Assembly (NCBI GenBank): GCA_016780995.1
Contig: JADHKZ010000005.1
Location: forward strand, 1-35,553
Direction of reading: 5' to 3'
Source: Thermoleophilia bacterium
Lineage (GTDB): Bacteria; Actinomycetota; Thermoleophilia; Miltoncostaeales; Miltoncostaeaceae
DNA length: 35,553 nucleotides
In this document: piece after piece, positions 30,646-35,174 of the stretch
Numbering within the stretch: position 1 is the first letter of the stretch
Layout of the letters: every line of letters begins with the position of its first letter
Notes under the pieces: model-generated
The model's database searches: none
What the model saw: the letters and a program-made list of their open reading frames with translations, nothing else
What the model was told of the DNA's origin: nothing
Translations under genes and position numbers: made by a program

Positions 30646-30770
30646 GGAACGGAACCGTAGACCCGGAGTGTGAAGGTCGCGGTAAGCCCGCTTAAGAGCT
30701 CATGAAGATCGAAACCCCCCGTTCCGGGGTGGCGGCACCGGCCGCCGGGCGTCATTGTGATGGTCGTCCG

Positions 30771-30776
30771 TACAGA
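30771..30776 (+). promoter_or_regulatory. Candidate -10 box TACAGA for the PAS protein gene
   Basis: TACAGA lies 28 nt before the ATG at 30804 and leaves room for a leader of about 20 nt with the GAGGGA ribosome site at 30792-30797. No -35 box at normal spacing is seen. Confidence 0.3.
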
Positions 30777-30803
30777 GCAGGGTGCCGGATCGAGGGATCA
30801 CCG

Positions 30804-32300
30804 ATGACCGAGGGCAACGCGGTGCCATCCCGTGACCTGCTCCTTGCCGAGCTGCCTGACGCCGTGTTCCTCGAGAAGGACGGCGTCATCATCTTCGCCT
30901 CCGACAGCATCATGCGCGTGCTCGGGTATCCGCCCGAGGCGATCGTGGGCATGTCGCTGGAGTCGCTGTCGCACCCGGATGAGGTGTCGTCACTGGTCCC
31001 CGTGCGCGCGCGGCTCGCCGCCGGCGAGGAGGTGACGGTGCTCATCTACGCACGGCACGCCCACGGCCACCACATCCCGGTGGAGGCCAGGCTGCGCCCG
31101 CACCAGGACGCCGCCACCGGGAGCGACGTGATCGGGCTGCTGCGCCCGCTGGACGACACCAGCGACCGCCGTGAGGACATCGCCCGGGTCGAGGCGGCAC
31201 CCGGGCTGCTGGCCAACCGCGCCGGCGATGTGCTGTTCCTGGTGGACGGGGAGGGCATCGTGCTGGAGGCCGGGCCGGGCGTGCACGCCCTGCTGGGCTG
31301 GACGGCAGACGAGCTCAAGGGCATCCCGCTGGCCGGACTGCTGCACCCCGACGACCAGCCGGCGGCCACGGCCTACCGGGCGTCGGTGCAGGCCGACACC
31401 GCCACCGGGTCCATCGAGGTGCGCGCCCGGACGCGCGGCGGATCGTGGCGCTGGTTCCTGGCCACCGGGGTGATGGTGAGCGCCCCCGAGGCGGGCGGCC
31501 GCGAGGCGCGGCGCGTGATGATGTCGTGGCGTGATATCGATGCCCTGGTGCGCGACGCGCGCTTCGCCGAGCGCGAGGCCGCGCGTCTTCGCGCCATCAT
31601 CGACGTGGCGCTGGACCCCTGGCTGATGCTGGGGCCGCTGCGCGATCGCCGGGGCCACATCACCGACTTCGTGGTGGAGGACGCCAACGCCGGGGCGGCC
31701 GAGTACCTGCGCTGGCCCCGCGATCAGCTGGTGGGGGCACGACTTGCCGAGGAATTCCCCGCGCTCGTGGAGAATGGCCTGCTGCCGGCGTATGTGGAGG
31801 CCATGGAGTCGGGTGGCCCCGTGGTGGTGCATGACCTGGCCTACCCGCATGAGATCCATGGAGGCACCCGCCGCTACGAGGTACGCGCACGATCGGCCGG
31901 CGGATCCCTCATGCTCACCTGGCGCGACACCACCCCGGTGAGCCTGGCGCGCGACGAGCTGGCCAAGGCCGAGTCGCTGTTCCGCGCCATCGCGTCGGTG
32001 GCCGGCGACGCCGTGGTGTTCGTGCGGGACGGATCGGTCGCGTGGGCATCGCAGGGGGCGCAGGACATGGGCTTCGCAGCCGACGCCGACTTCGCATCGG
32101 TGCTGGAGGCCGTGGTGGTGCCCGACTCCGCGGGCGACGCGCGCACCTGTGCGCTCCTGATGGAGTCGCACCCGGGCTACGCCGGGCGCCTGCACCGCGC
32201 GGATGGCACCCCGATGATCGTGCGCGCGCACCCCATCAACGGCACGGGCGCCGGATCCGTGGTGGTGATCACCGACGAGGTGTGGACCACCGGAGGCTGA
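30804..32300 (+). CDS. Four-PAS sensory protein without a recognisable output domain
   Basis: A 498-aa cytoplasmic protein composed of four PAS-like units: about 8-115 (LPDAVFLEKDGVIIFASDSI, VLGYPPEAIVG, HPDE), 135-245 (DVLFLVDGEGIVLEAGPGV, LLGWTADELKG, HPDD), 262-375 (more divergent, YLRWPRDQLVG) and 392-495 (DAVVFVRDGSVAWASQGAQ). The first two are clear; the last two are weaker. There is no histidine kinase, GGDEF, EAL, HTH, STAS or PP2C segment; the chain ends in the last PAS unit. It may sense a ligand or redox state and act through a partner. The ATG at 30804 is preferred over an in-frame ATG at 30702 because GAGGGA sits six bases upstream and the extension looks non-coding. It is divergent from the protease gene. 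Confidence 0.88.
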   Translation: MTEGNAVPSRDLLLAELPDAVFLEKDGVIIFASDSIMRVLGYPPEAIVGMSLESLSHPDEVSSLVPVRARLAAGEEVTVLIYARHAHGHHIPVEARLRPHQDAATGSDVIGLLRPLDDTSDRREDIARVEAAPGLLANRAGDVLFLVDGEGIVLEAGPGVHALLGWTADELKGIPLAGLLHPDDQPAATAYRASVQADTATGSIEVRARTRGGSWRWFLATGVMVSAPEAGGREARRVMMSWRDIDALVRDARFAEREAARLRAIIDVALDPWLMLGPLRDRRGHITDFVVEDANAGAAEYLRWPRDQLVGARLAEEFPALVENGLLPAYVEAMESGGPVVVHDLAYPHEIHGGTRRYEVRARSAGGSLMLTWRDTTPVSLARDELAKAESLFRAIASVAGDAVVFVRDGSVAWASQGAQDMGFAADADFASVLEAVVVPDSAGDARTCALLMESHPGYAGRLHRADGTPMIVRAHPINGTGAGSVVVITDEVWTTGG

Positions 32301-32303
32301 CCC

Positions 32304-32549
32304 CTACGCGCCCCGGCGGCTCCTCTGCGCCCGGTCGATGCGGTCGGCCAGGTCGTCGGCCAGCATCGCCCGCGTGCTGGCCCGCTCGGCCTGGATGCGC
32401 AGGCGCGCCAGTTCCATGCGGGCGTCATCGTCCAGGCCCTCGGATCGATCAAGGGTCTCCAGCCGGGCGATGTCGGCCGCGATCTCCCTCACCCGGTCCC
32501 AGCGGCGATCGGCCACCGACCCGGCGCCGTCACGGGCCTGCCCGGTCAC
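32304..32549 (-). CDS. Small unknown protein coupled to the helicase gene, 81 aa
   Basis: An 81-aa, highly charged protein that is probably all helical: RRWDRVREIAADIARLETLD, a short turn (SEGLDDD) and then ARMELARLRIQAERASTR form a likely antiparallel helical hairpin or coiled coil. It has no Cys, membrane segment or known motif. Its GTG start overlaps the helicase TGA (GTGA, 32546-32549), the strongest evidence that it is real. Its stop is three bases from that of the convergent PAS gene. A role as a helicase partner is a guess from position only. Confidence 0.65.
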   Translation of the reverse strand: MTGQARDGAGSVADRRWDRVREIAADIARLETLDRSEGLDDDARMELARLRIQAERASTRAMLADDLADRIDRAQRSRRGA

Positions 32550-35026
32550 TCCGGCGACGGGGTGTCGGGTGACGCCGATGCCGCGGACTTACGGCGGCGC
32601 CTGCGGCGGCGGCGGCGCGGTGCTGCTCCCTCGGCGGGCGTATCACTCGCGGGCGTGGGGGCATCGCCGTTGTCGGTGGGCTCCGCCGGCACGCCCGCCT
32701 GCGGCGTGGCGGCCGCGCCGGCCACCTCCGACGTGGACATCTTGCGGCGGCGCCTGCGGCGGCGGCGCGTGGTGCCGCCCTCCTCGCTGGCGGCGCCGAT
32801 GCCAAGGTCCTCCGCTGCGGGCAGGCGCGGGGCCTTGGGGCGCAGCTGGTTCCAGGCGCGCGCGCTGTGCAGCGCCCGCGAGTTTCGGGTGCCCACGGCC
32901 GCCCGCAACGCGCGCCGGGCATCAGGCTGGGTCCAGTCGATGGCGTCGAGGGCGCCGCGCAGCGCAGCCCAGCCGCCACAGGTGCCCGCGGCCCGGCTGG
33001 CCACGCGGATGTCCTCGCTCTTCAGCGGGACGTCACCCGGACCCAGCGCCAGCACCACGCGCCCGGCCTGCCCCACCTTCAGCGGCGATCCCTCCTCGGG
33101 CGGCTCCACGGGATCCGGCGCGGGAGCGCCCACCGCGCGAAGCCACAACCCGATGAGCCCCACCTCGCCGCCGTTCTCGATGAGGTGCTGCGACTCCCAC
33201 TTGGCGATGCGGTGGATCTCCTGGTTGCGCCCGGGGCGGCTGGCATCGGCCAGGCCGCGCGACACCTCCCAGGCCCAGGCGGGTGCCCACGACGACGCGC
33301 TGTCCAGCGCCGACCACCTGCGCCGGCGCTCGGCCGAACGCCCCTGCTGCTCCAGCGATGCCACGTTCTCCCACTTGCCCGCCTGGTCGGCGTGGAACCA
33401 CAGGGCGCGAATGCGCTCGCGGGCCGTCATGCGCAGGCGGTCCAGGATGGAGCGCGGGGCATCGGCGGGCAGGGCCTGGCGCAGGTCCGGCTGCACCAGC
33501 AGGGCCAGCGCCCAGGCGCGCCACAGCGGTTGCTCATCGCCGTTCTCGGCCTTGCGCGCCACCACCCCGCTGAGCGCCCACCACGCATGCGCCCCGCGCG
33601 GGTCCACGCCCTGGGCAAGCTGCTCCGACACCTCCTGCCAGTCGGTGTCGCGGCCGGCGGCCTCCACCCACTCCTCCATCACGCTGATGGGGATCTCCGC
33701 GGGGTCGGCATCGCGCCAGCCGCCATCACGGAAGCCGGCCACCAGCGCCGACGGGGCCGCGCCGGGGTTGACCAGGCTGGCCTTTCCACCGTCCTGCTGC
33801 GCCAGGATCTCGGCAGCACGGGCCAGCTTGCCGCGCTCGCCGCCCTCCGGCGGGCCGGCCACCCGCCCCAGCGGCTTGTACCAGCCCATGCCGAACAGGT
33901 CATGGCTGGTCTGCACCCCCATGGGGTCGCCGGCCGGCAGGAACTCCACCGACACGGCCTCCTTGTCGGGGGCCGGGCGCATCACGCGGCCCAGGCGCTG
34001 CACGAACACGCGCTCGCTGGTGGTGGGCGCCAGGTGCATCACCACCGACGCGCGGGTCTCATCCCAGCCCTCGGTGAGGAGGTCGGCGTTGCACAGCACG
34101 TCGATCTTCCCGGCGCCGAATTCCTTGAGGATGCGCTGCAGCTCGCGCGCCTGGGTCTGGCCCGACACCGCCGCGGCCTTCACCCCCCGCTCGGTCATCT
34201 CATCGGCCAGGGCGTGCGCCTGGGCCACGGTGGCCGTGTAGGCCACGCCGGCCAGCCCCAGCGGCATGAAGTGCTCGGCCCACACCTCGGCGCACGCGCG
34301 GTGCCAGAGGGCGCGATCCAGCGCGCGTCCCAGGCTGGCCTGGTCGAAGTCGCCGCGCACGCGGGTGACATCGGACAGGTCCACGGCGCGCTCCACGCGC
34401 AGCGAGCGCAGCGGGCACAGGATGCCGCGATCGATGGCCGACTGGCGATCCAGGGTGGCGGCCACCGGGCCGAACACCTGCTCCACGTGGCCGGTGGTGG
34501 TGGCGGGCGTGGCGGTGAACCCCACCACCACGGCATCGGCCGCGCGGTCGATCATCCGCCGCGTCTGCGCGCCCAGGGTGGTGTGGGCCTCATCGCACAC
34601 CAGCAGGGTCACGGCGTCCCAGTCGGCGTCGTGCTGGTTGCGCAGCGCCGCCTGGTAGGTGCAGATGGTCACGCCGGGGCGGCCGATGGACCCCACGCCG
34701 TCCACGGTGAACGGCACATCGGGGAAGAAGGTCTGCAGGGCCGAGGCGGTCTGCTCGGCCAGGTTGCGCCGCGGCACCAGGATGACGGCCGAACCGCCCA
34801 GCGCCGCGGCCAGGGCACAGAAGGTGATGGTCTTGCCCGACCCGGTGGGGGCATCCACCCAGGTGCGGGTGGCGCCGGCGCGCAACCGGATGGCCAACTC
34901 ATCGAGGGCCTCGATCTGGTGCTCGCGCAGCACCACCCCGGGCCACCACTCCGCGGGGTCGGCGAGGGCGGCCTCCAGGCGCTCCTCGGGAGCAAGGGCC
35001 TCGGTGGGTTCTATGTGAGTGCTCAT
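32546..35026 (-). CDS. SF2 DEAD/DEAH-box helicase with unrecognised C-terminal half and two poly-Arg tracts
   Basis: An 826-aa protein. The helicase core (about 30-365) has a Q-like REHQ (34-37), Walker A APTGSGKT (59-66), DEAH box (145-148), TATP (171-174), a second RecA domain with LLTEGWDE (317-323), and motif VI QRLGRVMRP (343-351). It resembles XPB/type III restriction-like SF2 enzymes. Residues about 380-740 are mostly helical, Trp- and Ala-rich (HAWWALSGVVARKAENGD) and match nothing I know. The tail has eight Arg (754-761) and nine Arg (804-812) in a row, separated by an acidic, Pro/Ala-rich linker, likely for nucleic acid binding. The ATG at 35026 is preferred to the GTG at 35038, which lies within the only GAGGTG ribosome-site candidate. 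It is coupled to the 81-aa gene. Confidence 0.9.
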   Translation of the reverse strand: MSTHIEPTEALAPEERLEAALADPAEWWPGVVLREHQIEALDELAIRLRAGATRTWVDAPTGSGKTITFCALAAALGGSAVILVPRRNLAEQTASALQTFFPDVPFTVDGVGSIGRPGVTICTYQAALRNQHDADWDAVTLLVCDEAHTTLGAQTRRMIDRAADAVVVGFTATPATTTGHVEQVFGPVAATLDRQSAIDRGILCPLRSLRVERAVDLSDVTRVRGDFDQASLGRALDRALWHRACAEVWAEHFMPLGLAGVAYTATVAQAHALADEMTERGVKAAAVSGQTQARELQRILKEFGAGKIDVLCNADLLTEGWDETRASVVMHLAPTTSERVFVQRLGRVMRPAPDKEAVSVEFLPAGDPMGVQTSHDLFGMGWYKPLGRVAGPPEGGERGKLARAAEILAQQDGGKASLVNPGAAPSALVAGFRDGGWRDADPAEIPISVMEEWVEAAGRDTDWQEVSEQLAQGVDPRGAHAWWALSGVVARKAENGDEQPLWRAWALALLVQPDLRQALPADAPRSILDRLRMTARERIRALWFHADQAGKWENVASLEQQGRSAERRRRWSALDSASSWAPAWAWEVSRGLADASRPGRNQEIHRIAKWESQHLIENGGEVGLIGLWLRAVGAPAPDPVEPPEEGSPLKVGQAGRVVLALGPGDVPLKSEDIRVASRAAGTCGGWAALRGALDAIDWTQPDARRALRAAVGTRNSRALHSARAWNQLRPKAPRLPAAEDLGIGAASEEGGTTRRRRRRRRKMSTSEVAGAAATPQAGVPAEPTDNGDAPTPASDTPAEGAAPRRRRRRRRRKSAASASPDTPSPE
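32591..32617. repeat. Poly-Arg codon repeat, downstream copy
   Basis: Nine Arg codons (mostly CGC, one AGG, one CGT). This copy and 32744-32767 share the same order of codons, including the single AGG and the following Lys codon, so one probably arose from the other by duplication of about 28 bp. Confidence 0.7.
32744..32767. repeat. Poly-Arg codon repeat, upstream copy
   Basis: Eight Arg codons with the same pattern as 32591-32617 (CGC run, one AGG, CGC run, then Lys). The two copies lie 126 bp apart within the 3' end of the helicase gene. Confidence 0.7.
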
Positions 35027-35168
35027 GCCATCTCGCACCTCTCAGCGCATGGCGCAACCCATGCGCGGCAGGCCCACGGGGGACCGATGCGGACTCGGAA
35101 GGGCCCAGGAGGCGGTCGGCATGGCGCTCGTCACTGCGAGGCGCCGGACGGCCCGTGAACCATGGAGG

Positions 35169-35174
35169 ACCATA
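35169..35174 (-). promoter_or_regulatory. Candidate -10 box TATGGT upstream of the helicase gene
   Basis: TATGGT on the minus strand lies about 140 nt before the helicase start. It is followed after five bases by an ATG that opens a ten-codon frame (35131-35163, MVHGPSGASQ). This may be the helicase promoter with a long leader containing a tiny leaderless frame. The rest of the 227-nt gap up to the next gene shows no other clear signal on this strand. Confidence 0.3.

Follow-up and report, generated by a model that had tools for sequence, protein, structure and literature searches.

On the minus strand of the window, by which we mean the whole stretch of 35,553 nucleotides analyzed here, an open reading frame at 32546-35038 encodes an SF2 DEAH helicase of 826 aa, the probable start of which is the ATG at 35026. 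A conserved structured leader lies ahead of this start, a small coupled gene overlaps the helicase stop codon, and the local GC content is about 74%. The features of the locus are as follows.

35027 to 35174, minus strand: conserved structured 5′ leader, whose outer helix covers, by pairing, the stretch immediately ahead of the ATG
32549 to 35026, minus strand: SF2 DEAH helicase coding sequence, 826 aa, with its stop codon at 32546-32548
33932 to 35026, minus strand: helicase core of two RecA-like domains, residues 1-365 (Pfam ResIII at 32-175, Helicase_C at 264-350)
34829 to 34852, minus strand: motif I, APTGSGKT, residues 59-66, with P60-T66 invariant in the orthologue alignment
34583 to 34594, minus strand: motif II, DEAH, residues 145-148, invariant in the orthologue alignment
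33977 to 34000, minus strand: motif VI, QRLGRVMR, residues 343-350, invariant in the orthologue alignment
32792 to 33844, minus strand: predicted orphan all-alpha C-terminal domain, residues 395-745 (AF2 model, no Foldseek match, family-restricted)
32741 to 32767, minus strand: first Arg block, R8K, residues 754-762, kept in orthologues with varying codons
32618 to 32740, minus strand: acidic low-complexity linker of 41 residues, 763-803, with 6 acidic and 0 basic residues and a length that varies among orthologues
32588 to 32617, minus strand: second Arg block, R9K, residues 804-813, kept in orthologues with varying codons
32304 to 32549, minus strand: small coupled protein of 81 aa, whose GTG start overlaps the stop codon of the helicase (GTGA)

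An earlier note on this DNA had called the helicase core clear, and the Pfam matches bear this out, with ResIII (E 8.8e-21), DEAD, and Helicase_C all ending by about residue 360. The protein has the features of the SF2 DExH superfamily, namely a Walker A motif, DExH, motif III TAT, motif VI QRxGR, and two RecA-like domains, and the complete set of helicase motifs was unchanged across 18 aligned orthologues. Judged by its sequence, the motor is of an ordinary kind, an SF2 core of ResIII/RadD type. Escherichia coli RadD (YejH; NCBIfam NF053632) has this SF2 ResIII-type core in common with helicase residues 32-357, and both proteins carry an accessory C-terminal part after motif VI. The RadD equivalog model scored 57.1 bits against the protein and 54.9 bits in the genome search, below its cut-off of 720. 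RadD has a zinc-ribbon domain after the core (PMC9821108), whereas the window helicase lacks the zinc-ribbon cysteines and has a longer all-alpha C-terminal domain, an Arg tail, and a coupled small protein; a search of the helicase for a zinc-finger Cys pattern found none, and the sole Cys past residue 312 is residue 683. The best PDB match to the core, over residues 8-360, was the type IV restriction enzyme SauUSI (PDB 7CLG), in which an alpha-helical coupler follows the motor (PMC7913695), as an alpha-helical domain does in the window helicase. Unlike SauUSI, the window helicase has neither a PLD nuclease nor an SRA target-recognition domain (Pfam), and it lies outside a defence context. The core also resembles the DExH core of XPB/RAD25 (archaeal XPBII and RAD25 structures), but scores fell below the cut-offs of NCBIfam XPB (35.4 versus 610 bits) and Pfam ERCC3_RAD25_C (14.2 versus 27 bits), as they did for NCBIfam UvrB (45 versus 743 bits). 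A DEAD-box RNA helicase is contradicted both by motif II, which is DEAH, and by the score against DbpA (41.6 versus 524 bits). By these tested features, the helicase is not a RadD, XPB, UvrB, DEAD-box protein, or type IV restriction enzyme, which agrees with the earlier view that its layout is not that of UvrB or XPB. No description of the 826-aa protein came up in literature searches.

Beyond the core, residues 380-740, to which no domain could previously be given a name, had no match in Pfam, NCBIfam, PADLOC, or PHROGs, and a profile of the C-terminal region had none among PDB sequences. When 14 family members were scanned singly against Pfam, this region gave only scattered chance-level matches. 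The full-length AlphaFold model of the helicase was poor (pLDDT 68) and was set aside. For residues 395-746, AlphaFold2 with an input of 14 sequences predicted a solenoid-like domain in which every element is helical (pLDDT 87.6, pTM 0.81), though the five models span confidences of 62-88, so the precise arrangement of the helices calls for caution. Foldseek comparison of this domain against the PDB and BFVD returned nothing below 1e-3, and the weak matches were mostly assorted alpha-solenoids at a TM of about 0.2. Comparison with HEAT, ARM, and TPR repeats gave a best Foldseek E of 0.06 at a TM of about 0.2, and HEAT_2 appeared at E 0.07 in one distant relative only. Sequence-profile and fold searches together thus brought up no known domain for this region, and the confident match that the earlier note had said would refute its reading did not appear. 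No significant viral fold match was seen in BFVD, and a scan of viral contigs with the domain found nothing. The domain has 127 invariant positions, among them 25 of its 37 Arg and 15 of its 18 Trp residues; this is the composition expected for a binding surface, with binding itself putative.

We surveyed the window's family, its class, and a sample of genomes from elsewhere in the phylum. The helicase gene was present, essentially as a single copy, in 20 of 21 sampled genomes of the family; the one genome lacking it has a completeness of 80%, and a few family drafts have the gene broken across contigs or frames. Across 41 Thermoleophilia genomes, the full protein was found in all 8 family members and a core relative in 13 genomes from four other families (f3, f5, f7, and f8; loci L060-L072), mostly at 37-40% core identity, while 20 genomes from three families had no relative at all. 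The genomes from the rest of the phylum gave no match at 1e-20. A check of homologues and their neighbors, as had been proposed, found the C-terminal region convincingly in the window's family only, among chromosomal housekeeping genes. The more distant core relatives resemble the window protein in having a C-terminal region (~270 residues) and, behind it, a basic block, and differ from it by an acidic insert ahead of motif I. Profile comparison of the two sets of C-terminal regions gave no match, and at the distant loci the neighbors are unlike those of the window and the small partner was not found. The layout common to the family and these relatives reflects either divergence beyond recognition or two origins. 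Two of the distant relatives (L066 and L070) carry long repeated Lys/Arg tails.

The small protein that had been noted as coupled to the helicase gene is a constant of the family locus. It lies downstream of the helicase in 20 of 20 loci checked, and 15 of these show the window's 4-base overlap. Translational coupling can be read straight from the sequence; a physical association of the two products is putative. The 81-aa protein has a dN/dS of 0.17-0.48 versus closer orthologues, and its orthologues have the core pattern VADxxWxRVR...LADxLAD in common. Searches of Pfam and NCBIfam gave no family match. A Csm2 match (E 5e-4) covered a short helical stretch and was treated as chance. Conserved neighbors flank the pair. 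One side has a protein that is transcribed divergently and whose N-terminal segment is hydrophobic; the other has a trypsin-like protease, a MoxR ATPase, and DUF58 and VWA proteins. The locus is a stable chromosomal housekeeping context. We rejected an origin in a mobile or defence element, as no phage or plasmid location covers 80% of the helicase; phage and plasmid matches are mainly to the core and are all below 60% identity. A multi-PAS protein at 30702-32300 of the window (plus strand) is convergent with the helicase operon, and a relative of it was seen at just one other locus (L009).

Upstream, about 150 nt ahead of the helicase start are strongly conserved in the window's genus and near relatives. 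The consensus fold is multi-branch, and its outer helix joins columns 24-35 to the 12 columns preceding the ATG. Pair cells held 96.8% standard pairs, versus 92.0% for shuffled and 29-45% for slid controls, and five pairs, in helices 2, 4, and 5, were altered on both sides. Covariation lends moderate support, since the outer helix is nearly invariant and most of the changes trace to a single split between lineages. With a covariance model, the leader was found once in each of the three genomes sampled from the genus, always at the helicase gene; one weak match elsewhere (E 0.017) was judged to be chance. The leader had no match in Rfam, and we regard it as a candidate cis-regulatory RNA, specific to the genus.

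At the other end of the protein, two Arg runs around an acidic linker, as originally described, were found in the window protein and in 19 of 19 family orthologues examined. They persist in every full-length orthologue, down to ~65% identity, though in the L014 copy a His interrupts the second run. Codon choice within the runs varies between proteins and draws on all six Arg codons (CGC, CGG, CGT, CGA, AGG, and AGA). Because the blocks are conserved while their codons vary, selection on the amino acids maintains them, and since both runs are ancestral to the family, the proposal that they arose by duplication fails as an account of recent copying of one from the other. A codon pattern common to both runs, CGC..AGG..AAG, occurs in the window copy alone. 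AGG is enriched within the runs (30/477 versus 45/2441 outside, or 6% versus 2%), perhaps as an interruption of slippage-prone repeats where the runs are CGC-rich. In a sample from one complete family genome, which took in ~298 crude gene predictions totaling about 100,000 aa, only one other protein had runs of at least 6 R/K, and none were found in the other genes of the window. That protein, an NYN + OST-HTH (PIN-like RNase/LOTUS) protein (L074:17298-20000, minus strand, genome G012), has three Arg blocks of at least 6 set in acidic low-complexity linkers, like the helicase, from which it differs by having a PIN-like NYN domain and no helicase. A search for this RNase-like protein in the window's own genome did not find it. 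RNase E bodies (PMC10412687) serve here only as a pointer to the way in which tails with charge blocks might work.

Collectively, the protein is a real, uncharacterized housekeeping nucleic-acid enzyme of one bacterial family. Our preferred reading, to which we give a probability of roughly 0.4, is a chromosomal, vertically inherited SF2 translocase that remodels nucleic acid or ribonucleoprotein (RNP) and is anchored by its tail to polyanions, most likely RNA or RNP. Going by the complete motifs, the two RecA domains would hydrolyze ATP and move on duplex or structured nucleic acid, and the predicted all-alpha domain could provide a surface that binds nucleic acid or protein. The disordered tail of R8K, acidic linker, and R9K may anchor the helicase to polyanions without sequence specificity, and its target would most likely be RNA or RNP, possibly in clusters like RNase E bodies. 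The 81-aa protein, co-translated within the operon, would act as a dedicated partner. For the window's genus, the structured leader, as folded, would hide the start region and probably controls expression, which would resemble the way in which an RNA-binding enzyme regulates its own synthesis. The balance tips slightly toward RNA or RNP on account of the Arg tail, the leader, and the RNase-like comparator, whose tail is similar. Against this stand the best named relatives of the core, which are DNA enzymes (SauUSI, RAD25/XPB, RadD, and Dnd restriction), the fact that the comparator is a single sampled protein that was not found in the window's own genome, and the leader, which occurs at genus level only and owes most of its compensatory changes to a single split between lineages.

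Almost equally probable, given that the closest named cores are those of DNA enzymes, is a translocase of DNA repair or replication forks that would work as RadD or XPB do, moving on duplex or branched DNA. The core scored best against DNA enzymes, with PHROG 16 DNA helicase at 3e-57, SauUSI at 5e-20, RadD at 1e-15, and RAD25 at 1e-12. A translocase of this kind would use the alpha-helical domain and the Arg tail to contact DNA and partners, in place of the zinc-ribbon and SSB-binding domain of RadD, and it would fit both a genome that has no RadD above the cut-off, where the helicase gene is the best RadD match, and a gene that is chromosomal and near-universal in the family. Repair is made less probable by the missing zinc-finger Cys pattern, by neighbors that include no repair genes, and by upstream regions in which a LexA-type box (GAAC-N4-GTTC) was sought and not found, while the leader RNA and Arg tail look more like RNA biology.

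A bolder extension of the RNA/RNP reading, which we think unlikely, would make the helicase, with its unclassified alpha-helical domain, a new SF2 family. Together with the small partner and the charge-block tail it would form an RNA-remodeling or RNP-body machine peculiar to this bacterial family, which the enzyme itself would control, in one genus, through the undescribed leader. The new family suggested in the earlier note stands as a new architecture; as a new kind of enzyme it would be overstated, the motor being of the ordinary SF2 ResIII/RadD type. Far less probable is type IV or phosphorothioate-like restriction, or another defence translocase: the core's weak similarity to models of PbeA, type IV restriction, and Dnd, and its closest solved counterpart, SauUSI, with a helical coupler after the motor, are outweighed by an all-alpha C-terminal domain in a protein with no nuclease or target-recognition domain, by the want of any viral relative of that domain, and by a near-universal, single-copy gene in conserved housekeeping synteny, unlike mobile defence genes. 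High GC (about 74% locally) and the similar codon patterns of the window copy's two runs would suit Arg blocks that are neutral by-products of CGC-repeat slippage on an otherwise ordinary helicase, but their retention to ~65% identity with six Arg codons in use, their AGG enrichment, and the rarity of such runs in other genes make this the least credible explanation.

A near-universal single-copy gene without a named protein family marks a gap in knowledge of nucleic-acid maintenance in Thermoleophilia, and the paired Arg blocks make this bacterial helicase a natural system in which anchoring by charge blocks could be tested. Finally, we note that the records fetched by similarity to the helicase were metagenome-assembled genomes (MAGs), many of them labeled Thermoleophilia or Miltoncostaeales. 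Three titled Bifidobacterium breve (L005, L012, and L015) carry the Thermoleophilia helicase locus at 80-92% protein identity, and these labels are probably misassignments.
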